From Hyalangium ruber (GTDB lineage Bacteria; Myxococcota; Myxococcia; Myxococcales; Myxococcaceae), in assembly GCF_034259325.1 (NCBI RefSeq), contig NZ_JAXIVS010000014.1, positions 1 through 64,000 of the forward strand: a stretch of DNA of 64,000 nt. The letters run 5' to 3'. The notes beneath the pieces are model-generated. The model did no database searches. It saw only the letters and a list, made by a program, of their open reading frames with translations, and was not told the origin of the DNA. Position numbers and translations under genes: made by a program. Shown one piece after another: positions 1-54,478 of this stretch. How positions within the stretch are numbered: position 1 is the stretch's first letter; each line of letters begins with the position of its first letter.

Positions 1-1
1 T

Positions 2-58
2 GCGCTCGCTGCCATCGAGAACCCGGGCACCGTCACGCTGCCGAAGGCCCAGGGCTGA
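2..58 (+). CDS. 3' end of an unidentified gene (partial)
   Basis: Only the last 18 codons lie in the window, ending TLPKAQG and a TGA at 56-58. The upstream part is cut off by the window edge, so no family can be named. The reading frame is open and its codons look coding, but so short a piece cannot be proven. It runs in the same direction as the metallohydrolase gene that follows. Confidence 0.35.
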   Translation, partial: ALAAIENPGTVTLPKAQG

Positions 59-149
59 CCACCTCTCCCTCCGTGCGGCCAAGGACGGGGCAGCTCCGTG
101 TCGGGACGGGGCTCGGCGAGGACTTACGATCCGCAACGCCACCATCAAA

Positions 150-890
150 GTGGAATACGCTGGCACGACCTTCCTGATCGACCCCATGCTGGCAAAGAAG
201 GGCGCCTACCCTGGCTTCGAGGGCACCTACAACAGCCACCTGAGAAACCCGCTGGTGGAGCTGCCCATGCCGGTGAACGAAGTGATGAAGGCGGATGTGG
301 TGATCGTCACCCACACGCACTTAGATCATTGGGATGACGCGGCCAGGCAAAATCTGCCCAAGAACATGCCGATCTTCGCGCAGAACGAAGAAGATGCCGA
401 AAGCATCCGCAAGGACGGTTTTACGGACGTGCGTGTTCTGACCGAGAACACCGTCTTCAACGGCACGCGCCTGAGCAAGACCGGTGGCCAGCATGGCGAT
501 GACAAGATGATGACGGATCTCGGCAAGATCCTTGGCAAGGTCTCGGGCGTGGTATTCGAGCGCCCCGGCCATAAGACCGTGTATGTGGCCGGCGACACCG
601 TATGGAACCGCCATGTGGAGGAGTCGATCCAGAAGTACCAGCCGGATGTGATCGTCCTCAACACCGGGTATGCGCGCGTGCTGGGCTATGACGGTTCGAT
701 CATTATGGGCAAGGAAGACCTTTACCGCGCCTACCAGTCCGCGCCGAAGGCCATGGTGATTGGTACCCACATGGAATCGGTCAACCACGCCACTCAGTCA
801 CGTGCGGAGCTGCGGGACTACATTGCGGAAAAGGGCCTGAACCCGCAGCGCGTGCGGGTGCCGGCGGATGGCCAGGCGTACAGCTTCTGA
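150..890 (+). CDS. Metallo-beta-lactamase-fold hydrolase (UlaG-like), 5' end uncertain
   Basis: The protein is a soluble metal-dependent hydrolase of the UlaG-like branch of the metallo-beta-lactamase superfamily; its substrate is unknown. The metal motif HTHLDH is at residues 55-60, and later metal-site regions are visible as GDTVW and GTHMES. The only start in frame is GTG at 150, but recognisable family sequence continues upstream of it (LTIRNATIK, from about position 123), and no ATG/GTG/TTG or ribosome site precedes that stretch. The true N-terminus was therefore probably lost, or the gene is fused or truncated at its 5' end. Codon choice (many GAA and AAG-poor runs) is less GC-biased than in the neighbours, which suggests acquisition from another lineage. 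A good terminator follows. Confidence 0.82.
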   Translation: MEYAGTTFLIDPMLAKKGAYPGFEGTYNSHLRNPLVELPMPVNEVMKADVVIVTHTHLDHWDDAARQNLPKNMPIFAQNEEDAESIRKDGFTDVRVLTENTVFNGTRLSKTGGQHGDDKMMTDLGKILGKVSGVVFERPGHKTVYVAGDTVWNRHVEESIQKYQPDVIVLNTGYARVLGYDGSIIMGKEDLYRAYQSAPKAMVIGTHMESVNHATQSRAELRDYIAEKGLNPQRVRVPADGQAYSF

Positions 891-964
891 GCTTCCGCGG
901 GTGGCCTTGCACCCTAAGGCCCGTCTCGCCTGCCTGCCTGCTCGTCACGAGCCCCAGCACGGAA

Positions 965-1002
965 CCCCGTGGCGCCAGCAAGGTGCCACGGGGCTTTGTT
1001 TT
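965..1002 (+). terminator. Rho-independent terminator after the metallohydrolase
   Basis: A 12-bp stem (left arm 965-976, right arm 982-993, one G-U pair) with a 5-nt AGCAA loop is followed by CTTTGTTTT. This is the clearest intrinsic terminator in the window and it separates the metallohydrolase from the lipoprotein gene. Confidence 0.85.
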
Positions 1003-1124
1003 GGCCTAAGTCCACAGCGATTTCGGGCTCACCCCCCTTTGCAAAGCGCCCGTCGTCCCTACCTTCCTGCCCGCATGAAAGGGCTCCCCGCATGAGCGCG
1101 GCAGCCCCCTTCGAGGAGGAACAC

Positions 1125-1328
1125 GTGACGAAGAAGCTTCTGCTGGGTGCGGTGCTGGGTGCGCTGGTGGCCGGGACGGGCTGCCACCGCAGCACGCGAG
1201 AGAATGCCGAGGACAAGGCGGAGAAGGCCGGCGATAAGGTCGAGGACGCCGCCGACGACGCCAAGGATAAGGCCGAGGACACCGTGGAGAAGGCTGGCGA
1301 CAAGATCGAGGATGCCACCGACAAGTGA
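1125..1328 (+). CDS. Small highly charged lipoprotein
   Basis: A 67-residue protein starting at GTG, chosen because GAGGAGGA lies 4 nt upstream. Residues 1-20 form a lipoprotein signal with lipobox AGTGC. After the cysteine the protein consists almost only of K, E, D and A in two imperfect copies of an amphipathic unit (EKAGDKVEDA and EKAGDKIEDA), predicted to be one long charged helix. This resembles LEA-like or YtxH-like stress and spacer proteins, but no specific family is claimed. It is probably attached to the inner or outer membrane. The prolyl oligopeptidase frame begins just downstream. Confidence 0.75.
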   Translation: MTKKLLLGAVLGALVAGTGCHRSTRENAEDKAEKAGDKVEDAADDAKDKAEDTVEKAGDKIEDATDK

Positions 1329-1465
1329 CGCCTCGCCGGAGGCCACGCTCGTCCTGGAGGTTCGCCAGGACGAGCAGCTCGGCTAAAGGTGCCGAAGCCC
1401 CAGTCGGGAGCGCGGAACATCTTCCGCCGACCTCCTTCCGGATGCGCATACGCTTGGCCCGCTCG

Positions 1466-3559
1466 ATGATGAAGAACCTGAGCCAGGCCCTGGCATTTCC
1501 CACGGCACGACGCGATCCGGAGAGCGGCTACACGCTGCACGGCAGGTGGTTCGACGATCCTTACGCTTGGCTGGAACGGCTCGACACCGTGGAGTCCCAG
1601 GCGTGGATCGCGGCGCAGGAAGCAGTCACGCATGCGGTGCTGCGCGCGGTACACGGACGCGAGACGCTGAGGGCAGCGGTCGATCGCTCCGCGCGTTATG
1701 CACGGCTCTCGCCGCCGATTCCCGCCGGACCGCACGGCCGCGAGTTTCTCTGGCAGGCGGACGCCAGCGACGACAAGCTCAAGCTCATGCTCCGGCGCGG
1801 CAAGGACGCGCCGCTCGAGACGGTGCTCGACCCCAACACGTGGGCGAGCAACGAGGCGTTGGTCTTCGCCGTCCCGTCACCCGATGGGAGGCGGGTCGCG
1901 TTCGGGAAGGCCATTGGCGGGACTCAGTCCGCGGTGATCCACGTGCTCGACGTCGACACGGGACGGGTGCTCCCCGACAGGCCTCGCGGTACGAGCCACA
2001 CGTCGCTGGCCTGGCGACCCGACGCCTCAGGGTTCTTCTACGCGGCGTGTCCCGAGCCGGGCGAGGTGCCCGAGGAAGACGCGGAGCACTGGAACGCCAT
2101 CTACGAGCACCGGCTTGGCTCGGGAGTGCCGGCCCGCCGGCTCTTCGGCGACGACCATGAGAAAGAGCTCTGGTGCTCCGTCAAGATCAGCGAGTGCCGC
2201 CGCTTCGCCGTGCTCTACAAGTGGGACTACGTGCATGCCAACGTGGTCTACCTCCTGCGCCTGGCGGATGACGCGCTCGTGCCAGTGGCTCCCGTCATGC
2301 GGTCGCTCAACCAGGTGCAGGTGGTCGGTGACACGCTGCTCGTTCAAACCGACCTCGACGCACCGCGCGGTCGGCTCTGTGTCGCGTCGCTGGTGGCGCC
2401 GACAGAGTGGCGGACGCTCATCCCCGAAAGCGCGGACACGCTGCAGACGGTCACCGGTGTGGGCGGCCGGCTCTACGCGGTCTACTCGCATGCGGCAGCG
2501 CATCGCGTGCGCATCCACGCCGAAGATGGCACCTACCTCCGAGACCTTGCGTTGCCAGCCCTCGGCTCGGTGAATCGCAATGAGGGCGAGGGCATCGTCA
2601 GCGGCATCAGCGGCGCCTGGAGCGGCGGCGAGGTGTGGGTGAGCTTCATGTCGTACGTGCAGCCGCCATCGGTCTACCGGTATGACTACGCGACGGATCG
2701 CCTGTCGCCGTACCACGTGCCCGACGTCGGGCTCGACGCGTCTGAGTATGTGACGGACCAGGTCTGGTACGAGTCGCGCGACGGTACGCGGGTCTCGATG
2801 TTCCTCATCCACCGGAAGGGGCTGCCTCGCGACGGGCGCCAGGCGGTGCGGCTGAGCGGCTACGGTGGCTTCAACATCTCGGTGGAGCCGCGTTTCTCGG
2901 CGCTCAACGCCGCCTGGCTGAAGCTGGGCGGCGTGCTCGCCTTTGCCAACGTGCGAGGTGGCGGCGAGTACGGCCGTGCCTGGCACGAGTCGGCGTGCAA
3001 GACGCGGCGGCAGAACGCCTTCGATGACTACCTCGCGGCGGCGCGGTGGCTCGTCTCGGCGGGCTACACGAGTCCCTCCAGGCTTGCCTCGCGCGGCAAC
3101 AGCAATGGCGGCTTGCTCGTTGCCGTCACCGCCATGCAAGCGCCCGAGGCCTTCGGAGCCGTCTTCTGCCGTGCGCCCACGCTCGACATGCTGCGCTTTC
3201 CGACCTTCGGCGCCTTGAACTCGGCAACGGTTGAATACGGCTCGCCCGAAGACCCGGTCGAGGGCGCATATCTCTCCGGCTATTCGCCCTACCACAACGT
3301 CCGAGCCGATCGCCGGTATCCGGTGATCGCCTTCGTGTCAGCGTTGAACGATCGGATCGCGCCGCCACACGACCCGCTCAAGATGGTCGCCAGGCTCCAG
3401 GCCGAAGGCACGCAGGGCGGACCCTATTTCCTGCTGCCGCTCCGGGACTCGGGGCACGGAGGAGGCACCACGCTGACGGCGCTCATCGAACAAGACGTCG
3501 ACGAACTCAGCTTCTATTGCTGGGCGCTCGATGTCGCACCGTCAACGCGCAGGCTCTAG
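1466..3559 (+). CDS. Prolyl oligopeptidase family serine peptidase (S9A)
   Basis: The protein hydrolyses short peptides, typically after proline. An N-terminal beta-propeller (about residues 70-420) gates a C-terminal alpha/beta-hydrolase domain. The catalytic triad is visible: Ser546 in GNSNGG, Asp629 in ALNDR and His664 in SGHGG. Length is 697 residues from ATG 1466, normal for the family. Other in-frame starts are 1442 and 1469; none has a good ribosome site, so the start is uncertain by about 8 codons. There is no signal peptide, so it is probably cytoplasmic. It runs convergently towards the isocyanide synthase gene. Myxobacteria carry several such peptidases; a role in maturing the neighbouring product is not supported by sequence. 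Confidence 0.93.
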   Translation: MMKNLSQALAFPTARRDPESGYTLHGRWFDDPYAWLERLDTVESQAWIAAQEAVTHAVLRAVHGRETLRAAVDRSARYARLSPPIPAGPHGREFLWQADASDDKLKLMLRRGKDAPLETVLDPNTWASNEALVFAVPSPDGRRVAFGKAIGGTQSAVIHVLDVDTGRVLPDRPRGTSHTSLAWRPDASGFFYAACPEPGEVPEEDAEHWNAIYEHRLGSGVPARRLFGDDHEKELWCSVKISECRRFAVLYKWDYVHANVVYLLRLADDALVPVAPVMRSLNQVQVVGDTLLVQTDLDAPRGRLCVASLVAPTEWRTLIPESADTLQTVTGVGGRLYAVYSHAAAHRVRIHAEDGTYLRDLALPALGSVNRNEGEGIVSGISGAWSGGEVWVSFMSYVQPPSVYRYDYATDRLSPYHVPDVGLDASEYVTDQVWYESRDGTRVSMFLIHRKGLPRDGRQAVRLSGYGGFNISVEPRFSALNAAWLKLGGVLAFANVRGGGEYGRAWHESACKTRRQNAFDDYLAAARWLVSAGYTSPSRLASRGNSNGGLLVAVTAMQAPEAFGAVFCRAPTLDMLRFPTFGALNSATVEYGSPEDPVEGAYLSGYSPYHNVRADRRYPVIAFVSALNDRIAPPHDPLKMVARLQAEGTQGGPYFLLPLRDSGHGGGTTLTALIEQDVDELSFYCWALDVAPSTRRL

Positions 3560-3667
3560 CGTCCTGTGTGCGGGTGGCGGTGGGTGCCCGTCCCCTTGGC
3601 AGGACCTTATGTACTGCGCGGAGATGTGGAGCGCCGCTGCGCCCACGGTCAATCGAGGCTGCTCAGC

Positions 3668-4600
3668 TCAGTCCTGCTGGAAGTGGCTGGGCTTGCCGTC
3701 GAAGTGTACCAGGCGCCCGAGTCCCTCGGCCTTCGCGCGCGGCATGAGGGTCCAGGTGCCGTCCGCGCGGCACAGGGCCGACGAGTGCCAGGGGGTGGTC
3801 CAGGCGTCGGGGGCGTCGAGGAGGCGGATGCCGAATTTGGCCGCGCCGATGGGCTGGGGGTGGATGGACAGTCTGACGGCGTTCGGGTGGTGCTCGGCGA
3901 TGAGGTTGCCCCAGGCGCGACTGCGCTGGATGACGCCGTAGGCGCGCTGCCGGCAGGAGCGTTGGAGCGCGGAGCGGCTGCCAGACCAGTCGTGGGTGTC
4001 CTCGACGAGGAAGCGGGTGATGCCCCGATAGAGGGCGAGGGTGTCGTCGTTGGAGTGGACCTCGGCGCGCACGTCGTCCAGGGCGGGGGCATAGCGGTTG
4101 TGGGCATGGGCGCGTTTCGCGGGGTGCGGGAGGTCGCCGAAGACGTCGCGCAGGTCGAAGACGCGCAGCCTCTCCAGGCCCAATCGATCGATCTGTGTGC
4201 GGAGTTCGTCGGTATAGGCGTCGATGTGGTCGTCGGGAACGCCGACGAGGTCACCGAAGATATGTCCGTCGGAGCAGATGATCATTCGGGCGCCGGGCCG
4301 GTGGATCCGCTGGATCTCGAGGCACAGGGTGTCCAGGAAGGTAAGGGAGAGGCGCTCTCCGTGGTCGGGCAGGTGGCCGAGGACCTTGTCCGGGTTGGGG
4401 GACTTGCAGGGGAAGCCGGGCAAGGTGAAGACGACGGGGGCGTCGTCGCTCACGAATGCGGCGATGCCGCGCAGCTGGTGGGGGAACGCCTGCGCGGGGG
4501 CGGGGGTCAGGTCGGTCGTGCGGTGGTGACGCAGGAGGAGGTTCAGGATCGACGCGCTGATGCTCGTGGGGAGGGTGTCGAGGGTGTTCGTCTGCAACAT
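3668..4600 (-). CDS. Isocyanide (isonitrile) synthase, PvcA/DIT1 family
   Basis: This enzyme family converts the amino group of an aromatic amino acid (Tyr or Trp) into an isonitrile, using ribulose-5-phosphate as carbon donor. The 310-residue protein shows the family signatures FPCKSPNPDKVLG (63-75), LPDHGERLSL (77-86) and DGHIFGDLVG (111-120). The ATG is preceded by AGGAG at 6-nt spacing. It lies 79 bp downstream of a P450 gene on the same strand, very likely one transcript. The usual partner PvcB (Fe/2-oxoglutarate oxygenase) is absent nearby; as in yeast DIT1/DIT2 and fungal xanthocillin loci, the partner here is a P450. The substrate, Tyr or Trp, cannot be told from this reading. Confidence 0.9.
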   Translation of the reverse strand: MLQTNTLDTLPTSISASILNLLLRHHRTTDLTPAPAQAFPHQLRGIAAFVSDDAPVVFTLPGFPCKSPNPDKVLGHLPDHGERLSLTFLDTLCLEIQRIHRPGARMIICSDGHIFGDLVGVPDDHIDAYTDELRTQIDRLGLERLRVFDLRDVFGDLPHPAKRAHAHNRYAPALDDVRAEVHSNDDTLALYRGITRFLVEDTHDWSGSRSALQRSCRQRAYGVIQRSRAWGNLIAEHHPNAVRLSIHPQPIGAAKFGIRLLDAPDAWTTPWHSSALCRADGTWTLMPRAKAEGLGRLVHFDGKPSHFQQD

Positions 4601-4679
4601 GGAGGTCTCCTGGCGCGTCGGCGGGATGCGGCCGAGCGCAGTGGGGTAGTGGGTGGGGTGGGTCGGCGGGGTGTCGGTG

Positions 4680-5942
4680 TCAGAGGCGTCGGCCGTAGCC
4701 GACGGGCAGGTGGTGGGTTCCTCGGCCGAGGACGGCCGGAATCCACTCGAGGTCCTCGTCCCTGATGGACAGGTGCAAGCCGGGCAGCCGAGCCAGCAGG
4801 GTGCCGAGGGCGATCTGGAGTTCGGTGCGGGCCAGGGCGGCGCCGGGGCAGAAGTGGATGCCGTAGCCGAAGGCGAGGTGGGGGTTGGGGCTGCGGTCGA
4901 AGTCGAGGGTGTCGGGCTCGGGGAAGCGGTGCGGGTCGCGGTTGGCGGCGCACAGGGAGACGATCACCGAGTCGCCGGCGGGGACGCGCGTGCCGTGCAG
5001 GTCGCTGTCCCGGTCGAAGAAGCGCCAGGTGGTCAGCTCGAAGGCGCTGTCGTAGCGCAGGAGTTCCTCGACGGCGCGGGGTAGCAGGTCCGGGTTGTCG
5101 CGGAGGCGGGCGAGCTGGTCGGGGTGGCGGAACAGGGCAATCAGGGCGGTGGTGATCTGATTGGTGACTGGCTCCTGCCCAGCGACGAGGAGCTGGAAGA
5201 TCATCGAGCTCAGCTCCTCCTGGGTCAGCTCATGGCGCTCGCAGGCCACGACGAGGCGGCTGAGCAGGTCGTCGGCTCCATGCTTGCGTTTGTGGGCCAC
5301 GACGTCGGCGATGTAGCTCTGCAGGCCGTGCAGGCGTGCCTCGTACAGCGGTCGCCCGGGGTCGGTGGGGCCGACCGGCTGGACGACCTTCCCCCAGTCG
5401 CGGTCGAAGCGGCCTGCCAGCTCGGGTGGGAGACCGATGAACTCGGCGAGGACCTGGAAGGGGAAGCGGGCGGCGAAGCCGGTGACCAGGTCGGCAGGGC
5501 CGTACTCGGGTAGCCCATCGACCAGCGCGTCGGCCAGTTCCTGGAAACGAGGGCGGAGCTGTTCGACGCGTCGGGGGGTGAAGGCGTCCGTCACGAACCG
5601 GCGCAGGCGGGTGTGCCGGGGCGGGTCCTGGTGGAGCAGATGCACCTGGAGCTGGGAGTGCTGCGGCTCCGGCATGATCGAGGCGCGAGCCCGCCAGCGC
5701 TCGTTGCCTCGGTCGTGGTTCTTTCCGAGGCGCTCGTCGTTCAGCGCGGAGCGCGCGGCCTCGTAGCCGGTGACGAGCCAGGCGTGAACGCCGCTGGGGA
5801 AGAGCACGCGATGGACCGGGCCGGCCTCACGCATCCGCTCATAAAGGAGGTAGGGGTTGGCCTTGTAGGGACAGCCTGTGAGAGGGACCGGGTCGGGCAA
5901 GGTGTCCGGCTCGGCGGGGGGCATGGGTTCATGGCGGGGCAT
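4680..5942 (-). CDS. Cytochrome P450 paired with the isocyanide synthase
   Basis: A class-I bacterial P450 of 420 residues, with no membrane anchor, needing a ferredoxin and a reductase. The haem loop is FGYGIHFCPG with Cys365 as thiolate ligand, and the K-helix ExxR is E293-R296. The I-helix reads AGQEPVT (254-260): the usual Thr of the AGxET oxygen-activation motif is Pro. That departure is seen in some P450s doing aryl coupling or other non-hydroxylating chemistry. The ATG has GAGGAGA upstream. It is first in the transcript with the isocyanide synthase, so it likely acts on the amino-acid isonitrile by decarboxylation or oxidative dimerisation (inference). Confidence 0.93.
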   Translation of the reverse strand: MPRHEPMPPAEPDTLPDPVPLTGCPYKANPYLLYERMREAGPVHRVLFPSGVHAWLVTGYEAARSALNDERLGKNHDRGNERWRARASIMPEPQHSQLQVHLLHQDPPRHTRLRRFVTDAFTPRRVEQLRPRFQELADALVDGLPEYGPADLVTGFAARFPFQVLAEFIGLPPELAGRFDRDWGKVVQPVGPTDPGRPLYEARLHGLQSYIADVVAHKRKHGADDLLSRLVVACERHELTQEELSSMIFQLLVAGQEPVTNQITTALIALFRHPDQLARLRDNPDLLPRAVEELLRYDSAFELTTWRFFDRDSDLHGTRVPAGDSVIVSLCAANRDPHRFPEPDTLDFDRSPNPHLAFGYGIHFCPGAALARTELQIALGTLLARLPGLHLSIRDEDLEWIPAVLGRGTHHLPVGYGRRL

Positions 5943-6231
5943 GGGTTCTCCTCAGAGGGCGAGCTCGGGCTGGGAGGGGTCCAGCCAAAGAGCGTCGACG
6001 AAACGTTCGAGGCGCAGGCGCTAGCCCCACTCCACGAGGGTTCGGCTCAGCTGCGGCTCACGTGGATAGAGAGGTGAAATAAATTTGTGCGGGCACTGCG
6101 TGACGGGCCCAGCCGGCCCGGGTACTCGGCATTCGTGCAAGGCACGCCCGGTGTACGCGCGGCATCACAAGCGCGAGGGAGGCCTTTCCTCGCGCGTGTC
6201 ACACGGGGCGCGGTCGTCGCTCTCTCCATGT
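5943..6231 (+). promoter_or_regulatory. Divergent intergenic region between the two P450 transcripts
   Basis: A 289-bp region must hold promoters for both the minus-strand P450/isocyanide synthase pair and the plus-strand P450/ferredoxin pair. The only AT-rich spot is GAAATAAATTTGT at about 6075-6087, a candidate promoter core. No clear dyad operator is seen. On the minus strand, 22 codons (5952-6020) ending LDPSQPELAL and a TGA just before the P450 ribosome site look like a gene remnant. Confidence 0.45.
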
Positions 6232-7461
6232 ATGAGCACGAGAGATTCCAGTCGTGGGGATGCTCAGGCGATCCCCGATTCACCGCCGCGCTATCCGTTC
6301 GGGCCCGTCCGGGCCTTGGACCTCCATCCGCGGTACGCGGAGCTGTGCCGGGAGGAGCCGATCAGTCGCGTGAAGATGCCGTTCGGTGGTGAAGCGTGGC
6401 TGCTGACGGGCTACGCCGAGATCAAACAATTCCTGGCCGACCCGAGGTTCAGCTCCCTGGAAGCCACGGAGCCGGATACCGCCCGAGTCACCCCATTGCC
6501 GTTGCGGCCCGGAAACCTGCTCACGATGGATCCACCGGACCACACGAGGATCCGCCGCGTCGTGGCGAAGGGCTTCACGATGCGGCGGGTGGACCTGCTG
6601 CGCGACCGGATCCGTGACGTGGTGGACGCGCAACTCGACCTGCTCGTCGCGCAGGGACCCCCGGCGGACCTGGTCGCCAGTCTGGCGGTCCCGCTGCCGG
6701 TCGTGATGATCTCCGAGCTGTTCGGCATCCCCTACTCGGATCGAGAGCGGTTCCGCCGGTACTCCGACGTCTTCGTCGCCACCACGGCCTACGACGCCGC
6801 CGAGATCGACCGGTCCCGGACGGCGCTGGAGGAGTACTTCCAGGAGTTGATGGAACAGCGCCGCTCATCCCCCACGGAGGACCTCGTCAGCGCCTTGCTG
6901 GAGGCGATGGACACCGAGCGGCTGACACCGCTCGAGGCCGCTCGAACTGGTATCGGGATTCTCATGGCCGGCCACGAGACGTCGCTCAGCATGATCTCGA
7001 ACAGCTGCTTCCTGTTGCTCTCCCAGCGCGAGCACTACGCCCGGCTGGTGGCCGAGCCCTCGCTGCTGCCGACGGCGGTCGAGGAGCTGCTGCGGTACAT
7101 CCCGCTGCGCTCGACCGGGAGCTTCCCGCGGCGAGCGAAGGAGGACGTCGAGCTGGCCGGCGTACGGATCCGCAAGGGGGATACGGTCATCTTCCAGCGC
7201 GCGTCCGGGGATCGTGACGAGCGGGTCTTCACGTGCCCCGAGAAGATCGACCTCGCCCGTAGACCCAACCCGCACCTCGGTTTCGGCCACGGGGCGCATC
7301 ACTGCCTCGGAGCATCTCTGGCCAGGGTCGAGTTGAGCCTCGCGATTGAAGGCCTGATCAATAGGTTCCCGGACCTGCGGCTCGCGGTCCCTAGCGACGA
7401 GGTGCCGTGGAAGCCCGGGCTGATCGCCCGCTGCCCCGCACGCATCGAGGTGACGTGGTGA
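6232..7461 (+). CDS. Cytochrome P450 coupled to its own ferredoxin
   Basis: A 409-residue soluble bacterial P450. The I-helix has canonical AGHET (246-250), the K-helix ExxR is E285-R288, and the haem loop is FGHGAHHCLG with Cys358. The start ATG 6232 (MSTRDSS) was chosen because it gives the family's normal length; a longer frame opens at 6085, but its extra 49 residues look non-coding. No strong ribosome site is present. Its stop overlaps the GTG of the ferredoxin gene, so the two are translationally coupled. Being divergent from the isocyanide synthase/P450 pair, it is probably the second tailoring oxidase of the same product. Confidence 0.92.
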   Translation: MSTRDSSRGDAQAIPDSPPRYPFGPVRALDLHPRYAELCREEPISRVKMPFGGEAWLLTGYAEIKQFLADPRFSSLEATEPDTARVTPLPLRPGNLLTMDPPDHTRIRRVVAKGFTMRRVDLLRDRIRDVVDAQLDLLVAQGPPADLVASLAVPLPVVMISELFGIPYSDRERFRRYSDVFVATTAYDAAEIDRSRTALEEYFQELMEQRRSSPTEDLVSALLEAMDTERLTPLEAARTGIGILMAGHETSLSMISNSCFLLLSQREHYARLVAEPSLLPTAVEELLRYIPLRSTGSFPRRAKEDVELAGVRIRKGDTVIFQRASGDRDERVFTCPEKIDLARRPNPHLGFGHGAHHCLGASLARVELSLAIEGLINRFPDLRLAVPSDEVPWKPGLIARCPARIEVTW

Positions 7462-7700
7462 GCGCCGGAACTTCCCTGCCCCGCCGCTGGCGGGTGCGAG
7501 TCACGGAGAGCTGTGCCGGTTGCGGGCTGTGCGTCATCGCGGCAGACCGCTACTTCCACCTCGTGGACGACTACTCACAAGCCCAGCACACCGAGGTCGA
7601 TCCGGACGAGGCCGTGATCGCGGCGGCCGAGCTGTGCCCGATGAACGCCATCGAAGTGGTCGACGCCGAAACCGGCGCCGAGGTGGTGCCCACGCACTGA
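7458..7700 (+). CDS. Ferredoxin for the adjacent P450
   Basis: An 80-residue single-cluster ferredoxin that passes electrons to the P450. The start is GTG 7458, overlapping the P450 stop by 4 nt (GTGA). The cluster motif reads CAGCGLC, then a distant CP (ELCPMNAI). P450-linked actinobacterial ferredoxins usually have a non-Cys residue at the second position of this motif and bind [3Fe-4S]. Here all positions are Cys, so a [4Fe-4S] cluster is possible. No ferredoxin reductase is encoded nearby, so a reductase from elsewhere in the genome must serve. Confidence 0.9.
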   Translation: MSAGTSLPRRWRVRVTESCAGCGLCVIAADRYFHLVDDYSQAQHTEVDPDEAVIAAAELCPMNAIEVVDAETGAEVVPTH

Positions 7701-7741
7701 ACTGGCCTCAGGCCCCGTTGGGCGGTTTGTCATCCGCGTGC

Positions 7742-7770
7742 TTGACAAGAAATAAGCATCTACTTATGTG
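7742..7770 (+). promoter_or_regulatory. Promoter with overlapping operator of the ArsR gene
   Basis: TTGACA (7742-7747) is a perfect -35 hexamer, and TATGTG (7765-7770) lies 17 bp on as a weak -10. Between and across them is an AT-rich dyad, ATAAG (7752-7756) - 6 nt - CTTAT (7763-7767). Such a dyad over the promoter is where ArsR-family repressors bind, so the gene that follows probably represses itself and the UvrA-like gene. Confidence 0.62.
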
Positions 7771-7776
7771 TCATGC

Positions 7777-8106
7777 ATGCAGAGCGCGGTCGTGGCCGAG
7801 GACAAGATCTTCCAGGCGCTGGCGGACCCCAGCCGCCGGGCGATCTTCGAGTCGCTCACGCGTGGCGAAGCGGCGGTGAAGGACCTCACGGCGCGCTTCG
7901 ACATCTCGCAGCCGGCGGTCTCTCAGCACCTCGCCACCTTGAAAGAAGCCGGCCTGGTGAATGGCCGGCGCGAGGGGCGCTGCGTCTACTACCGGGTGGA
8001 GCCGCGCGGCCTGAAGCCGCTCATCGACTGGATTGCGCACTACCGCGCCTTCTGGACGGAGCACGTCGATCGCCTCGAAGAACTGCTGAAGAAAATGGAC
8101 GAATGA
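7777..8106 (+). CDS. ArsR-family winged-helix repressor
   Basis: A 109-residue DNA-binding repressor. The winged helix is clear: KIFQALADPSRRAIFESL at the N-terminus, recognition helix ISQPAVSQHLATLKEAGL, and the wing GRREGRCVYYRV. No CxC metal-binding pair in the alpha3 helix is present, so it belongs to the non-metal ArsR group that often senses small molecules or pairs with a neighbouring effector. ATG 7777 is preferred; GTG 7768 is an alternative. A dyad operator overlaps its promoter. The UvrA-like gene starts 79 bp downstream on the same strand, a pairing common in actinobacteria. Confidence 0.92.
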   Translation: MQSAVVAEDKIFQALADPSRRAIFESLTRGEAAVKDLTARFDISQPAVSQHLATLKEAGLVNGRREGRCVYYRVEPRGLKPLIDWIAHYRAFWTEHVDRLEELLKKMDE

Positions 8107-8185
8107 GTTCCATCGACAAGCGCTGGTCGTGGCGATCGACCGCTGTCCACACAAACCGTTGATACTCGATAACAGGATCGCGAAC

Positions 8186-10642
<2,457 letters not shown>

Positions 10643-10736
10643 GCGAGTCCGCCGCGTAGGACAGGGAGGCTGCGGCCCCGGGTGCGCATGGTTCGGAGAT
10701 GGGTTGATCCGAAGATCGACTCGCGCGGACACGACA

Positions 10737-10765
10737 ACGCCCCCGGCCGACAGCTCCGGGGGCGT
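10737..10765 (-). terminator. Hairpin terminator between convergent genes
   Basis: A perfect 10-bp stem (10737-10746 with 10756-10765) and a 9-nt loop lie between the ends of the UvrA-like gene and the LysM gene. Neither side has a strong T-run, so termination may be only partial or may need Rho. Confidence 0.55.
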
Positions 10766-10795
10766 GGGTCGCGACGGCAAGGCGCCGTGCGGCGA

Positions 10796-11431
10796 CTAGA
10801 TGATCGGCATGAAGATCTTCAGCCCGCTGCGGCCACTCGCGCCCAGCGTGTTTTGCTCGATGAAGTCGCTCACGGACGAGCGCCCATCGCCGGTGGTGAT
10901 GGCGGTGTGGCCGTAGATGCTGCCAAGGCGCGAGGGGGTCCTCTCCCAGGTGAGCACCAGGCCGGGGATCTTCAGCGCCTCTTCGAGCGACATGTTGACC
11001 TGCTTGAACTTGTCGCGCGGCAGGTTGTCGTCGATCTGGTTGCCGTTGCCCCAGACCTTGAAGCCGAAGGCGTTCTGGATGGCCCGGCTCACGCCGGTCG
11101 CGCACAGGCCCTGGCTGTTGTAGCCGCCCATGCCCATCGCCGCCGCGCGGCCCGCTTCCGCCAGCCGGCGCATCGAGGGCGTCGCACTGCCCGGGGCACT
11201 GGCGCCCTGGGTCCCACCGACATTCCCGCCGCTCTGAGAGCCACCGGTGCTGCCCGAGTTAGCGCTGGGCTCGAAGCTGTCGCCCTGGCCGGGGATGCGC
11301 AGGGTGTTGCCCGTGTAGATGAGGTCCGGGTTCGCGATGTTGTTGACGCGCGCCAGCTCCGAGACGCTGGTCTTGAAGCGAGCGGCCAGGGCCGAGAGGG
11401 TGTCGCCTTGACGGATGCGGTAGGTGGACAA
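10796..11431 (-). CDS. LysM plus CHAP-like peptidoglycan hydrolase without signal peptide
   Basis: A 211-residue protein. Residues 2-46 are a LysM peptidoglycan-binding domain (TYRIRQGDTLSALAARF ... TLRIPG). A Gly/Ser-rich linker follows, then a C-terminal domain with CHAP/NlpC-like layout: Cys110 in GLCATGVSRAI and His175 in YGHTAITTGDG. The start is TTG 11431, chosen because AAGGAG lies 7 nt upstream and the LysM begins at residue 2; longer frames read into the neighbour's promoter. No Sec signal or lipobox is present, so it is either cytoplasmic, released by lysis, or exported as an effector through a phage-tail-like or type VI apparatus. No such apparatus genes are in this window. Confidence 0.82.
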   Translation of the reverse strand: MSTYRIRQGDTLSALAARFKTSVSELARVNNIANPDLIYTGNTLRIPGQGDSFEPSANSGSTGGSQSGGNVGGTQGASAPGSATPSMRRLAEAGRAAAMGMGGYNSQGLCATGVSRAIQNAFGFKVWGNGNQIDDNLPRDKFKQVNMSLEEALKIPGLVLTWERTPSRLGSIYGHTAITTGDGRSSVSDFIEQNTLGASGRSGLKIFMPII

Positions 11432-11558
11432 AGTCGTTCTCCTTGACCGATTATCGAGGTGTCCCTCGCGGAGTTGCGCTGGGGTTCTCGAATTCTTGGA
11501 AAACCCCCTCCTTCGCTGGCGGCGCCGCCGGGTCTCTTCGGGGGCAAGGAGTGTTTCC

Positions 11559-13298
11559 ATGCGTCCTCCCCCTCGCCGCTCCTCTGGGCCGGGCCTGCTC
11601 TCGTGGCTGCTCATCCTGGGGGTGCTCGGGGTGGCGGTGGCGCTGCCCCTGCTCGGAGCCTGGGTGGCCTCCACGCTGGCCATCCATCACGGCGCCCCCG
11701 TGGCCTGGAGCGTGGCCGCGGGCCTGGGGCTCGGCCTGGGGCTGCCCCTGCTCTGGGAGGTGTGGAGTCTGCCCCGGCGCCAGCAGGGCCGGCCCGCCCG
11801 CCCGCGCTGGTTGCGGCTGCGCACCCGGTTGCTGCTGCGCACCTGGGCGGTGAACCTCGTGTTCCTCGCGGGCGCGCTGCTGCTCTCGCCCCGAGGCGTC
11901 TTCACCGCGCTCTCCACCCGAGGCGACTGGATGCTGCCGCCCTCCGGAGGCCCCGTGGTGGAGACGGCCCGGAGGCTCCTCTTCGTCGCGGCGGATGGCG
12001 TCGAGTGGGCCTACGTCCTGGCCACGGACAACCCCTATCGCGACCAGCTCATCGCCACCGCGCCCCGGCCCCCGCCTCCTCCCGCCCGGCCGGCACCGTT
12101 CGTGCCGCCCGTGCTCGTGCCGCCCGTACCCGTGCCGCCTCCCTCCGAGACGCCTGCCCCCCAGCCGATCCCTCCCACGGACGAGGTGCTCGGGGAGGAG
12201 GATCCCCTGGAGGACAGTGACGCGCAGGTGATCATCTCCTGGAAGACGGAGCCGCGTCCCCCTGAGCCCGAGCCCGAGGTTCCGGCAAAGCCCACCGAAC
12301 CGAAGGTCGACGTGAGGGGGCTCAAGTCCTCCTGGCAGAATCCGGGGCTCCGGGCGCCCTCGGGGCCGGCAGAGAAGGGAGGCGCTGTCGCCTATCCGCT
12401 CCCCGACGTGCTCCACCCCCGCGTCGCCTCCCTTCCCCGCTCCGTGGAGACGGATCTGGTGTCCGTCGCGAAGTACCTCGTGGAGGGGGAGAGCGACCCC
12501 TTCCAGCGCGTCAAGGCGCTCCATGACTACGTGGCGGATCGCGTGGAGTACGACGTGCCGGCATACCGCGCGATGAAGATTCCGCCGCAGCCTCCCGAGG
12601 CCGTGTTCGAGAGGCGCCGGGCCGTGTGCGCGGGCTATGCGAACCTCTTCGCCGCCATGGGGCGCGCCGTCGGGGAGGAGGTCTTCACCCTCTCGGGCGA
12701 GGCCATCAAGCCCGGAGGGGAGAAGGAGCTGGAGTCCCATGCCTGGAACGCGGTGCGCATCAACGGCGACTGGTACCTCGTGGACGTCACCTGGAACGCG
12801 GGCTCGGTGGGTGGGGACCTGTTCACCCGCCGCTACCGGACGAAATACCTCTTCATGCCTCCCCAGGAGTTCTTGCAGAGCCATCTGCCGGAAGATGCTG
12901 GCTGGCAGTTGTTGGATGTGCCGCTCGAGCGGGGTGAAATCCTACGGCAGGCCCGCGAGAGCCATGTGAGCCGCGGCGGTTCGCTGCCGGCCAGGACCGA
13001 GACGGCGGCGGAGGAGAAGCGGGAATGGGAGGGCATCCGCATCCTCCAGCCCCCCCGACCGCTCGAGGAGGTCCGTGGGCGCTTCATCGTGGAGATCGAC
13101 AACCCCAAGCGCCTGCCGACCGAGATCTCCCTCCTCAACCTCCAGGATGGCAGCAAGGAGGACTGCTTCTCCCAGTCCTGGGGCACGCGGTACAGCTGCT
13201 CGGTGCCGCGAAAAGGCCTCTACCGGATCCAGGTCTTCGCTGGCCCCCAGACGCCTCCGAAGCTCATGGCGCAGCTCGAAGTCCAGGGGACGAATTGA
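11559..13298 (+). CDS. Membrane-anchored transglutaminase-like protein
   Basis: A 579-residue protein. The first 150 residues hold about three hydrophobic segments, then a long Pro-rich linker (about 165-220). The catalytic domain of the transglutaminase/protease superfamily follows, with triad Cys357 (RRAVCAGY), His394 (ESHAWNAV) and Asp409 (LVDVTWN). The last ~130 residues are beta-rich and unassigned. The ATG has AAGGAG 7 nt upstream. The domain should face the periplasm and act on peptides, as protease or cross-linker. The gene is divergent from the LysM hydrolase, so both may share regulation and work at the cell wall. It ends head-on against a P450 gene. Confidence 0.87.
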   Translation: MRPPPRRSSGPGLLSWLLILGVLGVAVALPLLGAWVASTLAIHHGAPVAWSVAAGLGLGLGLPLLWEVWSLPRRQQGRPARPRWLRLRTRLLLRTWAVNLVFLAGALLLSPRGVFTALSTRGDWMLPPSGGPVVETARRLLFVAADGVEWAYVLATDNPYRDQLIATAPRPPPPPARPAPFVPPVLVPPVPVPPPSETPAPQPIPPTDEVLGEEDPLEDSDAQVIISWKTEPRPPEPEPEVPAKPTEPKVDVRGLKSSWQNPGLRAPSGPAEKGGAVAYPLPDVLHPRVASLPRSVETDLVSVAKYLVEGESDPFQRVKALHDYVADRVEYDVPAYRAMKIPPQPPEAVFERRRAVCAGYANLFAAMGRAVGEEVFTLSGEAIKPGGEKELESHAWNAVRINGDWYLVDVTWNAGSVGGDLFTRRYRTKYLFMPPQEFLQSHLPEDAGWQLLDVPLERGEILRQARESHVSRGGSLPARTETAAEEKREWEGIRILQPPRPLEEVRGRFIVEIDNPKRLPTEISLLNLQDGSKEDCFSQSWGTRYSCSVPRKGLYRIQVFAGPQTPPKLMAQLEVQGTN

Positions 13299-13317
13299 CC
13301 GTCCGAGCGTGCGCCGC

Positions 13318-14538
13318 TCAGTTCTTCGGAAAGCGCACGTGGAGCGAGCTGGGCCCGCGATCCTGCAAGTTGGAGCCCTGGTAGTTGTAGGGCGTGCCGA
13401 CGAGCTCCCAGCGCGGAAGCGTGAGCAGGGCGCGCAGGGCCTCCTCGGCCTCCAGCCGAAGGAGAGAGGCCCCGGGGCAGTAGTGCGCACCGACGCCGAA
13501 GGTGACATGCCGGTTGGGCGTCCGGTGGATGTCGAAGCGATCGGGATTCGGAAACACCTCGGGGTCTCGATTGGCCGACGCGGTCATCGCGTGGACGAAC
13601 CGCCCCTTGGGGATGTGCGTGCCGCCGAGCTCCGTGTCCTCCACGCACAGCCGGTTGATGGACAGGACGGAGGGCTCAAGGCGCATGCTCTCCTCGATGG
13701 CGCCTCGCATGAGCCCCGGGTCCGCCCTCAACGCGCTCAGCTGCTCGGGGTGCTTCAGGAGCGCGAGAACGGTGTTGGTGAGCTGGTTCGTCGACGTGAC
13801 GAAGCCCGCGCCGATCATCTGGAAGGACTGGAAGACGGCCTCGCCCGTGAGGTGGGCGTTGCCCTCCTCCCCCGCGATGAACTGGCTGATGAGGTCGTCT
13901 CCGGGCGTCGCGCGGCGCTTCTCCAGGAGGTCTCGCAGGTAGGCCATCATGTCATTGGAGGTTCGCCGCACGGAGCTCCGCACGTCGTCCGTGTTGACCG
14001 CTGCCCCCGAGGGCTTGAGCAGGTCCTTCGCCCAGCGCATGAACCGCGGCCGGTCCGCCTCGGGGAGCGCGAACAGCTCGGCGATGGTGTTGAGGGCGAT
14101 GGGCTCCGCGAAGTCGGCGACGACGTCCATCTCTCCTTGGCGACGTCCCTTCTCCAGGGTCCGCTCCACGAGCGCGGCGAGCCGAGGTCGGAAGCGCTCG
14201 AGCGCCGCGGTCGTGAAGCTCTTCATGATGAACTGGCGCAGCACCGTGTGCCGAGGCGGATCCTGGAAGAAGACGAGCCGGGACCAGTCCGCGAGCATCT
14301 CCTTCGAGGCCGTATCCTCTCCCAGCAGCCCGAGCCCTCCCAGCAGCTCGTTCGCGCGCCGCGAGGAGAAGTGCGGGCTCTTGGTGAGCGCCTCGATCTC
14401 GGCGCCGCGCGTGAGGATGAAGCACTGGTAGGGCTCGAAGAAGTAGACGGGAGCCTGGGTTCGCAGCCGCTCGAACGTGGGGAACGGGTTGGCGAAGAAG
14501 CTCTCACTCATCAGATCGATACTGGCGCTCACGCTCAT
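13318..14538 (-). CDS. Cytochrome P450 (third in window)
   Basis: A 406-residue soluble P450. The haem loop is FGVGAHYCPG with Cys354, and ExxR is E283-R286. In the I-helix the sequence AGFVTST (244-250) keeps the Thr but has Val where the acidic residue of AGxE/DT normally sits, so proton delivery must differ. ATG 14538 was chosen for its GGAGGAAC ribosome site; 14559 is an upstream in-frame alternative. No ferredoxin gene adjoins it. It stands alone 27 bp after an ArsR gene on the same strand and could be co-transcribed with the AHSA1/ArsR pair. Its substrate is unknown. Confidence 0.92.
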   Translation of the reverse strand: MSVSASIDLMSESFFANPFPTFERLRTQAPVYFFEPYQCFILTRGAEIEALTKSPHFSSRRANELLGGLGLLGEDTASKEMLADWSRLVFFQDPPRHTVLRQFIMKSFTTAALERFRPRLAALVERTLEKGRRQGEMDVVADFAEPIALNTIAELFALPEADRPRFMRWAKDLLKPSGAAVNTDDVRSSVRRTSNDMMAYLRDLLEKRRATPGDDLISQFIAGEEGNAHLTGEAVFQSFQMIGAGFVTSTNQLTNTVLALLKHPEQLSALRADPGLMRGAIEESMRLEPSVLSINRLCVEDTELGGTHIPKGRFVHAMTASANRDPEVFPNPDRFDIHRTPNRHVTFGVGAHYCPGASLLRLEAEEALRALLTLPRWELVGTPYNYQGSNLQDRGPSSLHVRFPKN

Positions 14539-14565
14539 CGTTCCTCCGGGCAGACTCACCCTGCA

Positions 14566-14892
14566 CTATCCCCGCTTCTTCTTGCCCCGCGCCACTTCGG
14601 TGGCCAGGGCATCCAGCCGCGGCGTCCAGAACGCACGGAACCTGCCCAGCCAGGCATCCACCTCGGCCAGGGGCGCGGCGTCCATGGCGTACAGCCGCCG
14701 CGGTCCGTCTACCCGCACCGTGGCGAAGCCGCTCTCTCGCAGGACCTTCAGGTGCTGCGAGACCGCCGACTGGGTGATGCCGAACTCGCGCTGGACCACG
14801 GCGACGATCTCACCCGAGGCGTGCTCGCCTTCCGCCAGCAGCTCGAGGATGCGGCGGCGAACCGGATCGCCAAGGACGTCGAAGGCATGCAT
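14566..14892 (-). CDS. ArsR-family regulator paired with an AHSA1 protein
   Basis: A 108-residue winged-helix regulator: FDVLGDPVRRRILELLAEG, recognition helix ITQSAVSQHLKVLRESGF and wing VDGPRRLYAM. There are no metal-binding Cys residues. Its ATG overlaps the stop of the preceding AHSA1 gene by one base (TGATG), so translation is coupled. ArsR/AHSA1 pairs are widespread and usually ArsR comes first; here the order is reversed. It probably controls the pair, and perhaps the P450 downstream, from the promoter near 15545. Confidence 0.92.
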   Translation of the reverse strand: MHAFDVLGDPVRRRILELLAEGEHASGEIVAVVQREFGITQSAVSQHLKVLRESGFATVRVDGPRRLYAMDAAPLAEVDAWLGRFRAFWTPRLDALATEVARGKKKRG

Positions 14893-15518
14893 CAGCCGCC
14901 TGTATAAAACGCCGCCGTGCGCTCGGCCATCCCTCGGGCCACTTCGGGGGCCTCGCCCGCCGCCGCGTGGGCCGCGCCCCAGGCTTCGGCGCTCGCACGG
15001 ATGAAGGCCTTGGCCTCGTCCGAGGCCATCCAGGCGGGGTTGGCTTCCGGGGGGACGGTGTCTCCGTTCTCGACGTGCCGGCCCAGGCCCAGGAAGCCCA
15101 GGTCCCAGCCTACGCCCGCGCCGCCGGGCCCGAACTGGGTCCAGAACTGCTCGACGTCGGCGGAATGCACGATGTGCTCGAGCGTCAGCCGCGTGTCCTT
15201 GCCCTCCGGTGCGAGGCGAACGGTCACCCAGCTCATGCCGCCGCCCATCTCCCAGGTGACGTCGAAGGCCGTGGGCGGGTCGCAGCGGGTGATGGTCCCG
15301 CCAGCGTTGCCCTTGAGCTGATATCGACCGCCCAGACGCAGCTCCCCCTCGATGGGCATGAACCAGCGCGGGATGCGCTCGGTGTGGGTGAGGGCGTCCC
15401 ACAGGTCCTGGGGGTCGGTGTGGTAGACGCGGGTGGCGATCACCACTCGGGCCGGTTTGCCTTCGTGCTCGCGCTCGACGAACTCGCGTACCTGGGCGCC
15501 AATGGCGTTGTGCAGCAT
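14892..15518 (-). CDS. AHSA1/SRPBCC-domain protein
   Basis: A 208-residue protein of the START/SRPBCC fold (activator of Hsp90 ATPase 1-like). Typical features are RVYHTDPQDLWDALTHTERIP near residue 30, the GGRYQLKGNAGG strand pair, and RLTLEHIVHS. Such proteins have a deep hydrophobic cavity and bind small ligands; most bacterial members have no known reaction. The ATG has GGGGAGG at 7-nt spacing. Upstream, the region to 15577 is AT-rich (CTAATATAAGG on the minus strand) and probably holds the promoter. It forms a coupled operon with the ArsR gene. Confidence 0.88.
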   Translation of the reverse strand: MLHNAIGAQVREFVEREHEGKPARVVIATRVYHTDPQDLWDALTHTERIPRWFMPIEGELRLGGRYQLKGNAGGTITRCDPPTAFDVTWEMGGGMSWVTVRLAPEGKDTRLTLEHIVHSADVEQFWTQFGPGGAGVGWDLGFLGLGRHVENGDTVPPEANPAWMASDEAKAFIRASAEAWGAAHAAAGEAPEVARGMAERTAAFYTGG

Positions 15519-15615
15519 GTGCGAACCTCCCCTTCCAGGGTCGTTACAGGCTGTCCTTATATTAGTGCCGTCTTAAATGCCTGCAAGCCACGAAGTGCGC
15601 GGGGATAATCGCGGG

Positions 15616-16446
15616 ATGGAAGATCCAATCCTGGTCCGGGTGGTCGAGGCGCTTCGGCACGTTCAAGGCCTGTCCGCGCTCGTCCTTGGCGGTTCGCGAG
15701 GGCGGGGAACGGCGGGCCCCAAGTCCGACTACGACATCGGCCTGTACTACGAGCCGGATGCTCCCTTGGACATCGAGGAGCTGCGCTCGGCCATCGCCCC
15801 GCTGGTCGATGACCCTTCGTCGACGGTGACCCAGAGGGGCGAATGGGGCCCGTGGATCAACGGCGGGGGCTGGCTCACCATCGGCGGCGTCGAGGTCGAT
15901 CTGCTCTACCGCGACCTCGGCCGCGTGAGCGCCATCATCGCCGACGGGCGGGAGGGTCGCTTCTCGATGAACTACCAGGTGGGGCACCCCCACGGCTTCT
16001 GCTCCACCATCTGGATGGGCGAGGTCGCGACGTGCCAGCCGCTCTTCGATCCGTCCGCCCGCATCGCCGAGCTGAAGCGCCAGACGTGGCCGTATCCAAA
16101 GGCACTGAAGGACGCGCTGATCTTCCGCTTCGGCTGGGAGGTGGACTTCGCCATCGACAACGCCGAGATCGCGGCCCGGCGCGCCGAGCGCACGCACATC
16201 GTGGGGTGTGCCTACCGGTCGCTGAGTTGCATGGCCCAGGTGCTGTTCGCCCTCAACGGCCGCTACCTGATCAACGAGAAGGGCGCCGTCGCCGAGGCCG
16301 CGACCTATCCGCTGACGATCAAAGGTCTGGCCGAAGCGCAGAACGAGCTCTGGAAAGACATCGGTGATGGGAACCACGAGGGCGCGCTGCGCCGCCTGCG
16401 AGACATGTCAGGCAGCCTGCGGGCCCTCGTCTCGGGTGCCTCTTGA
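15616..16446 (+). CDS. Nucleotidyltransferase-domain protein
   Basis: A 276-residue protein with an N-terminal Pol-beta-type nucleotidyltransferase core: the GGSRGRGTAGPKSDYDIG segment carries the GS and DxD motif that binds metal and NTP, and VEVDLLYRD supplies the third acid. The remaining ~170 residues are helical, as in aminoglycoside- or antitoxin-like nucleotidyltransferases. ATG 15616 was preferred to 15577, since the family begins close to the core. Its substrate is not evident; antibiotic-type adenylylation is possible but not shown. It ends 12 bp before the convergent DUF1552 gene. Confidence 0.85.
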   Translation: MEDPILVRVVEALRHVQGLSALVLGGSRGRGTAGPKSDYDIGLYYEPDAPLDIEELRSAIAPLVDDPSSTVTQRGEWGPWINGGGWLTIGGVEVDLLYRDLGRVSAIIADGREGRFSMNYQVGHPHGFCSTIWMGEVATCQPLFDPSARIAELKRQTWPYPKALKDALIFRFGWEVDFAIDNAEIAARRAERTHIVGCAYRSLSCMAQVLFALNGRYLINEKGAVAEAATYPLTIKGLAEAQNELWKDIGDGNHEGALRRLRDMSGSLRALVSGAS

Positions 16447-53087: not shown

Positions 53088-54478
53088 CACTTGTTCTCCT
53101 TCGGCGCGGCGGGGGCCTGCTGTGGGGGCACGGCGTGGAGCACCACGCGGGCGTTGGGCCGCAGCATGTCGTTGGCGAAGCGCTTCACCTGCTCGGGCGT
53201 CACCGCCTGGTAGCGCGCCAGGTCCTGCGCCACGTAGCTCGGCTCGCCGATGAAGTGGTTGTAGTTCTGCAGCACGTCCGCCTTGCCGCCGAAGCCGCCG
53301 ATGGACTGCAGCCCCGCGAGGAACGTCGTGTCATAGCGGGTGCGCGCGCGGTTCACTTCCTCGGCGGTGACGCCGTTCTTGCGAATCTCCTCCAGCACCG
53401 CGTCCACCTCCTTCTTCAGCGTGTCGGTAGAGACGCCGGGCCGGGCCACCACCTCGATGGAGAAGACGGACTGGGAGCCCAGGCTCTGCTGCGTGGCGTC
53501 CACGCTCTGGGCGATCTGCTTGTCCATCACCAGCCGCTTGTAGAGGCGGCTGGCCTTGCCGGTGGCCAGCACCGTGGCGAGCACGTCCGCGGTGGCATCC
53601 CCCTCGCTCAAGTAGGCCGGGCTGTGCCAGGCCAGGGTGAGCAGGGGCAGCGTGGCCACTGTCTCCTCGTGGCGGATGACGGTCTCCTGCGAGAGCTTCG
53701 TCGGCGCCACCTGGGGCTTCTCGGGCTTGGGCGCGCTGGGCAGGCTGCCGAAGTACTTCTCCACCAGCGCCTTGGTCTTCGCCACGTCGAAGTCTCCGAC
53801 GATGGCCAGCGTGGCGTTGGAGGGCGCGTACCACTTGCGGAAGAAGGACTTCACGTCCTCGGGCGTGGCGGCCTCCAGGTCCGCCATCGAGCCGATGACG
53901 TCCCCGTGGTACGGGTGCGGCAGCGGGAAGAGCGCGTGCCACATCTTCTCGTGGGCGATGCCGTACGGGGCCGCCTCGGTGCCCTGGCGGCGCTCGTTCT
54001 TCACCACCTCCTGCTGCGTGGTGAGCTTCTCCTGGGTGAGCGCGTCGAGCAGGAAGCCCATGCGGTCGCTCTCCAGCCAGAGCGCCGTCTCCAGGTGGTT
54101 GCTGGGCACCGTCTCGAAGTAGTTGGTGCGGTCGAAGTTGGTGGTGCCGTTGAGGTCCGTGGCGCCCAGCTGCTCGAGCATGGAGATGTGGACGTCATCG
54201 GCCACGTTCTTCGAGCCCTGGAACATCATGTGCTCGAAGAGGTGGGCAAAGCCCGTGCGGCCCTGGGTCTCGTGGTAGGCGCCCACGTGGTACCAGAGGT
54301 TCACCGCCACGACGGGCAGCTTGCGGTCCACGGAGAGGATGACCTCCAGGCCGTTCTTGAGCTTGTACTTCTCATGGGGGATGGCGAGCGCCTCGCGACC
54401 GGGCTCCAGCGGCTTCGCTTCCTGGGCGAGCGCGGGTAGGCCGAGCGCGAGGACGGCAGCGGCGACAAAGGCTTTCAT
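53087..54478 (-). CDS. M16-family zinc metallopeptidase (active subunit)
   Basis: A 463-residue exported peptidase. It has a signal peptide (AFVAAAVLALGLPALAQ) and the inverted zinc motif His79-Leu-Phe-Glu82-His83 in GFAHLFEHMMFQGS, with the third Glu expected about 76 residues on (EVVKNERRQGTE). Two M16 halves are present. It likely degrades peptides in the periplasm together with the inactive partner encoded directly downstream, with which it overlaps. Such pairs are widespread in proteobacteria. ATG 54478 follows AAGGAGG. Confidence 0.93.
   Translation of the reverse strand: MKAFVAAAVLALGLPALAQEAKPLEPGREALAIPHEKYKLKNGLEVILSVDRKLPVVAVNLWYHVGAYHETQGRTGFAHLFEHMMFQGSKNVADDVHISMLEQLGATDLNGTTNFDRTNYFETVPSNHLETALWLESDRMGFLLDALTQEKLTTQQEVVKNERRQGTEAAPYGIAHEKMWHALFPLPHPYHGDVIGSMADLEAATPEDVKSFFRKWYAPSNATLAIVGDFDVAKTKALVEKYFGSLPSAPKPEKPQVAPTKLSQETVIRHEETVATLPLLTLAWHSPAYLSEGDATADVLATVLATGKASRLYKRLVMDKQIAQSVDATQQSLGSQSVFSIEVVARPGVSTDTLKKEVDAVLEEIRKNGVTAEEVNRARTRYDTTFLAGLQSIGGFGGKADVLQNYNHFIGEPSYVAQDLARYQAVTPEQVKRFANDMLRPNARVVLHAVPPQQAPAAPKENK

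Follow-up and report, generated by a model that had tools for sequence, protein, structure and literature searches.

The window, a stretch of 64,000 nucleotides from Hyalangium ruber (contig NZ_JAXIVS010000014.1, positions 1 to 64,000), carries a four-gene locus at 3668-7700 that we read as a hazimycin-like isonitrile pathway with a horizontally acquired core. In this reading, to which we give a probability of roughly 0.57, an isocyanide synthase (ICS) would supply isonitrile units, a first P450 (P450A) would dimerize them, and a second P450 (P450B) with its ferredoxin would perform an oxidation that replaces amidation by an asparagine-synthase-like enzyme (AsnB). Judging from gene content, an ICS paired with a P450 and lacking PvcB is of an already known type, common in actinobacteria, and what differs here is P450B and ferredoxin in place of AsnB. 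The locus would represent an apparent actinobacterial isonitrile module that has moved to predatory myxobacteria, minus amidation and transport genes and plus a different oxidase; this oxidase turns up again in a second lineage of Streptomyces, one that carries sugar genes. The pathway is small and yields a specific prediction, namely that a P450 performs a step usually done by AsnB or by PvcB/IsnB; if the product binds copper, isonitrile metal handling would be extended to Myxococcota.

Open reading frames and Pfam searches place ICS and P450A on the minus strand, with P450B and the ferredoxin divergent on the plus strand. The features are:

3668-4600, minus strand: isocyanide synthase (ICS; DIT1/PvcA family, PF05141), 310 aa (Pfam, phmmer)
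4680-5942, minus strand: P450A, 420 aa, proposed phenol-coupling P450; I-helix AGQEP, heme motif FGYGIHFCPG (Pfam, alignment)
5943-6228, no strand: intergenic stretch between divergent operons; conserved blocks break at about 6181-6195 in Archangium lansinium
6229-7461, plus strand: P450B, 410 aa; canonical I-helix AGHET, heme motif FGHGAHHCLG (Pfam, orthologue alignment)
7458-7700, plus strand: single-cluster ferredoxin, 80 aa, CxxCxxC...CP, four cysteines (Pfam)
3663-7721, no strand: DNA cassette common to the window and genome G097 (locus L096), flanks unaligned (DNA alignment)

P450A lies 79 bp upstream of ICS on the same strand, and the GTG start of the ferredoxin at 7458 overlaps the P450B stop by 4 bp. 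Pfam recovered PF05141, two P450 domains, and a single-cluster 4Fe-4S ferredoxin domain, in agreement with an earlier note on this DNA that described an ICS with a same-strand P450 facing a second P450 and ferredoxin; the ferredoxin would accordingly be of the 4Fe-4S type. The 289 bp given there for the distance between the P450 genes becomes 286 bp (5943-6228) with the P450B start taken as 6229, a frame that extends back to 6085. No PF02668 (PvcB-type) domain occurs in the ten genes scanned at 1325-14559 (the four and six neighbors), as the claim that no PvcB adjoins the locus had it, and two PF02668 genes are present elsewhere in the H. ruber genome. The window also gave no match to AsnB, Fec, or MFS proteins. 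Block 3663-7721 aligns end to end, at 88%, with a 19.5-kb stretch from another genus (L096), and the rest of positions 1-16000 did not align to that stretch at E ≤ 1e-10. An ArsR regulator at 7768-8106 was considered as a cassette member and ruled out, because L096 contains no match to it and the conserved DNA goes no farther than 7721. We found no sigma-70 consensus site in 5943-6228, no hits in a promoter and terminator consensus scan, and just weak, chance-like repeats at the cassette ends (3300-8200). A third P450 gene (13318-14559, minus strand) lies about 5.6 kb past the cassette, outside the conserved block.

The ICS scored 257 bits against PF05141 (gathering cutoff 26.4; positions 1-266 of 273), and its nearest solved structure is PvcA 3e59 (phmmer against the PDB, E 8e-77), which bears out its placement in the PvcA/DIT1 family. 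Across 93 homologue rows, 51 alignment positions are at least 98% identical. By homology its product should be tyrosine isonitrile acid, although the substrate could differ from tyrosine, since the protein reached 271.8 bits against the NCBIfam TyIsonSynPvcA equivalog, below the curated cutoff of 600 bits.

Our search for relatives, aimed at close relatives with one genome per species, kept the best 80 of 94 loci, 78 actinobacterial and 2 myxobacterial, with two genomes giving two loci each. In 77 of these 78 actinobacterial loci, P450A stands upstream of ICS in the same orientation, the pair being common in Streptomyces and Kitasatospora; P450A is partial in L091 (193 aa) and L092 (202 aa), and the sole miss, L063, keeps a 30-residue piece. 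Matches to AsnB were present in 51 of the 78 (three partial, at 40, 49, and 353 aa), to MFS in 65, to FecB in 63, and to FecCD and FecE in 64 each, some of them partial. In this gene table, absences partly reflect truncation, since the flanks extend 8 kb at most and some contigs end inside them. We chose its identity thresholds manually, it omits L001-L013 (3.3-3.8 kb), and some mechanical gene calls in the relatives' loci were misframed. Eleven loci hold ICS, P450A, MFS, and Fec genes with neither AsnB nor P450B nearby, so neither enzyme is strictly needed. Pfam confirmed the AsnB, MFS, and Fec identities in L061, which has a heavy-metal-domain P-type ATPase downstream, and a Streptomyces plasmid is annotated, in order, with a substrate-binding protein, permease, ATPase, MFS, asnB, P450, and isocyanide synthase. 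ICS relatives at 72-74% identity occur on Streptomyces plasmids (records H1-H6, with H1 holding the full annotated cassette), a possible transfer vehicle.

This ICS, P450A, AsnB, MFS, and Fec cassette appears to match the hazimycin (chalkophore) cassette. In 2024, Matsuda et al. reportedly assigned hazimycins, actinobacterial di-isonitriles that bind copper, to such a cassette of ICS, P450, AsnB, and transporter genes. The choice of hazimycin as a comparison in the earlier note was thus apt, given that the ICS-P450A cassette matches the gene content reportedly assigned to hazimycin. Its picture of a special minimal set defined by the lack of PvcB did not hold up: the ICS-P450A pair is found in 77 of 78 actinobacterial loci (best 80 of 94, scanned in part for PF02668), and the myxobacterial copies nest there. 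A minimal cluster unique to myxobacteria is ruled out by the same count, and PvcB loss is unsupported as a distinguishing feature, because the closest relatives likewise pair ICS with P450A. The H. ruber genome contains no AsnB orthologue (best match 39% over residues 1-399, versus 75-91% for full-length actinobacterial cassette matches), and its best FecCD match, at 45%, is on another contig.

Among 195 Myxococcota genomes, 12 have a PF05141 gene and five of these have the P450A partner. In midpoint-rooted trees whose bootstraps had not settled, the five myxobacterial ICS proteins form one clade (100/100) and the five P450A proteins another (100/99), both nested in Streptomyces. The ICS tree held 93 rows (88 different) and the P450A tree 80, after removal of ten duplicate loci and of rows with fewer than 220 or 350 aligned residues. 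Because the five pairs form a single clade within Streptomyces, they are most simply explained by a single transfer into myxobacteria, and half of the cassette, the ICS-P450A core, was probably acquired from Streptomyces-like bacteria. When positions 1-16000 were compared with the ICS-bearing 19.5-kb stretches of four relatives, homology was confined to 3663-7721. Compared with their counterparts in the four relatives, ICS, P450A, and P450B show 83-92% identity, and the ferredoxin shows 73-82% in the three that have one; for two baseline genes of the window in the same genomes, the values are 65-78% (62469-63998) and 73-81% (53087-54478). Given its higher identity than these baseline genes, a thin control of two genes, the cassette may move as a unit.

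The only alignment elsewhere was to a UvrA-like gene in L113, a separate stretch bearing P450B. The UvrA-like protein of the window (8129-10642) adjoins P450B, and G061 has one 46-59% identical to it (L113:11891-14238) at a distance of 1.6 kb from its displaced P450B, which may be chance. Of five other myxobacterial ICS loci scanned, three have a PF02668 neighbor (L098, L101, and L102) and two do not (L100 and L103). At L101:10118-11818 and L102:3017-4738 (G068 and G147, from two genera), a single frame joins an N-terminal TauD (Fe/2OG) domain to a C-terminal UbiA prenyltransferase; this frame adjoins a distant ICS (42-45% to that of the window) and might encode a fused desaturase-prenyltransferase for an isonitrile. 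In Archangium violaceum (L097:810-7191), radical SAM, ATP-grasp (LAL_C2), MFS, and DUF5916 genes precede the ICS-P450A pair, and the ATP-grasp ligase could replace AsnB there.

In P450A, proline replaces the usual I-helix threonine in 80 of 80 alignment rows. Phenol-coupling P450s without the usual threonine of the acid-alcohol pair have precedents in CYP158A2 and CYP121, and on these precedents the proline of P450A fits phenol coupling. The best solved matches of P450A are PikC and TamI. CYP158A2, a solved phenol coupler (biflaviolin synthase), scored about 223-229 bits against P450A and about 275-278 bits against P450B, so resemblance to a known coupler does not favor P450A. Among the genes scanned in cassettes of the AsnB type, no P450 cluster other than P450A was seen conserved beside ICS; a dimer made there would therefore need P450A.

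At E ≤ 1e-100, with at most nine P450 candidates scored per genome, P450A was found in 5 of 195 Myxococcota genomes and P450B in exactly the same five. Random coincidence of two such sets has odds of about 1 in 2 billion by an arithmetic that ignores kinship. Genus g3 alone supplies three of the five genomes, so the co-occurrence could be owed in part to common descent of the complete set; three other listed genomes of that genus have neither gene. Together with the alignment of block 3663-7721 to L096, this co-occurrence upholds the proposal of the earlier note that the genes belong together. G097 has the same gene arrangement as the window. In A. lansinium, P450B and ferredoxin lie 3 kb from ICS in a different orientation, the conserved blocks breaking between the divergent starts. 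In G061, about 3.7 Mb separates P450B from P450A; in G064, P450B is on a separate contig and no ferredoxin match follows it. All 11 P450B orthologues have AGHET, and the closest solved relatives include a mycinamicin P450, a nocardicin P450, and 4xe3, which we take to be OleP.

We also searched for P450B in 25 actinobacterial genomes that have the ICS-P450A pair (completeness unstated, L088 left out). It was present at 65-69% identity in six of the seven genomes of one ICS clade, the sugar-gene clade, and in none of the 18 others, of which five had just a 44-47% match and 12 have AsnB in the locus. The single miss in the clade is L089, a 12.8-kb contig on which no sugar genes were seen. For three of the six (L081, L082, and L087) the fetched locus itself contains P450B, and for the other three the coordinates place it about 9 kb from ICS. 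There was no P450B match near ICS in 75 of 78 actinobacterial loci (best 80 of 94, flanks of at most 8 kb), and no locus in the gene table has both P450B and AsnB; wherever P450B turned up at 64% or more, the ICS locus had no AsnB match nearby. On plasmids, the search returned 29 records at a limit of 1e-60, all below 60% identity.

The sugar-type loci (L079, L081, L082, L084, L087, L088, and L090) have ICS and P450A and no AsnB match in the loci. Members that we scanned contain deoxysugar genes, an EryCIII-like glycosyltransferase, a FAD monooxygenase, and an ABC-2-type exporter, and P450B at the identity given above occurs in all six of the genomes searched. The two ferredoxins looked at have three motif cysteines versus four in the window. 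We know of no product of these loci, which (with L129-L133) perhaps make a glycosylated isonitrile.

Starting from what can be read in the DNA (gene families, conservation of the pair, nesting in Streptomyces, P450B co-occurrence, and a locus without AsnB, Fec importer, MFS exporter, or PvcB), we infer the chemical steps, their order, and any metal-binding or antibiotic role. ICS would convert L-tyrosine and ribulose-5-phosphate to tyrosine isonitrile acid. P450A would link the phenol rings of two such units, in the manner of DIT2/XanG and as the hazimycin P450 presumably does with its tyrosine isonitrile units. P450B and ferredoxin would add an extra oxidation that takes over from AsnB amidation; its most plausible site is the benzylic/carboxyl end, proposed because P450B occurs where AsnB is absent. 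The two P450s probably do different things, and P450B may perhaps stand in for AsnB or PvcB. The cassette product is likely a dimeric tyrosine-derived isonitrile of the metal-binding antibiotic type. As the earlier note supposed, no described myxobacterial product of this kind appears among the open-license literature matches listed for myxobacterial isonitriles, and a term search for isocyanide, isonitrile, and PvcA gave no occurrence in two myxobacterial cluster surveys (PMC12766979, PMC10435759).

A sharper form of this reading, compatible with it and held only tentatively, makes P450B the vinyl-isonitrile former, acting by benzylic hydrogen abstraction and then decarboxylation as the Fe/2OG enzyme IsnB does in rhabduscin biosynthesis, after which P450A would couple two vinyl units. 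P450B and ferredoxin might then be a P450 system for decarboxylative desaturation of tyrosine isonitrile acid, a reaction hitherto attributed to Fe/2OG enzymes, and the myxobacterial and glycosylated Streptomyces pathways might lead to a new bis-vinyl dityrosine-type di-isonitrile, a proposal we hold equally loosely. P450s can start benzylic hydrogen-abstraction chemistry, but we know of no P450 that forms vinyl isonitriles. The restriction of close P450B homologs to ICS loci with no local AsnB match favors the idea, as does the benzylic hydrogen abstraction with a cationic intermediate that PMC9467999 reports for IsnB/PvcB, leading in IsnB through decarboxylation to vinyl isonitriles. The mycinamicin and nocardicin P450s among the closest solved relatives of P450B weigh against it, and the sequence of P450B does not reveal the reaction.

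It is unlikely that ICS and P450A suffice for the product, which would then be a coupled tyrosine isonitrile diacid, with P450B and ferredoxin as passengers acting elsewhere. The remote P450B of G061 and G064 and the many actinobacterial loci with no P450B near ICS (75 of 78) would suit such passengers, but they sit poorly with the exact co-occurrence in 5 of 195 genomes and the Streptomyces association (6/7 versus 0/18). A slightly less likely alternative swaps the roles, so that P450B couples the phenols and P450A performs the other oxidation; the higher CYP158A2 score of P450B points that way, whereas the constant partner of ICS is P450A, and it is P450A that has the invariant proline while P450B has an ordinary AGHET. 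We consider it improbable that ICS is DIT1-like and yields N-formyl tyrosine rather than an isonitrile, with a formyl-dityrosine-type material as the product. PF05141 does include yeast Dit1, and the title of PMC7345447 gives formyl tyrosine as the Dit1 product, but the only PDB matches of ICS at E ≤ 1e-3 were three bacterial PvcA-type sequences (a comparison without Dit1), and most actinobacterial relatives adjoin Fec-type importers.

The preferred hazimycin-like pathway can be set beside four known systems. With the hazimycin cassette, which reportedly makes a dimeric phenol-coupled tyrosine isonitrile and has AsnB and transporter genes, the window shares the ICS-P450 core with P450A upstream on the same strand; it differs in having no AsnB, Fec importer, or MFS exporter match and in having P450B and ferredoxin. 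Like PvcAB/IsnAB (paerucumarin, rhabduscin), it has a PF05141 ICS and likely a tyrosine isonitrile, but two P450s take the place of an adjacent Fe/2OG partner. The DIT1/DIT2 and XanB/XanG systems of fungi combine an ICS-family enzyme with a P450 assigned to dimerization (excerpts of PMC5974471), so the P450 role that the earlier note drew from them stands, but the parallel is otherwise loose: in the same excerpts XanB has its own dioxygenase domain and XanG is assigned only dimerization, and in the PDB the P450s of the window match bacterial P450s best. The sugar-type Streptomyces loci share ICS, P450A, and P450B without AsnB, and differ in their sugar, glycosyltransferase, FAD monooxygenase, and ABC-2 genes and in their three-cysteine ferredoxins.
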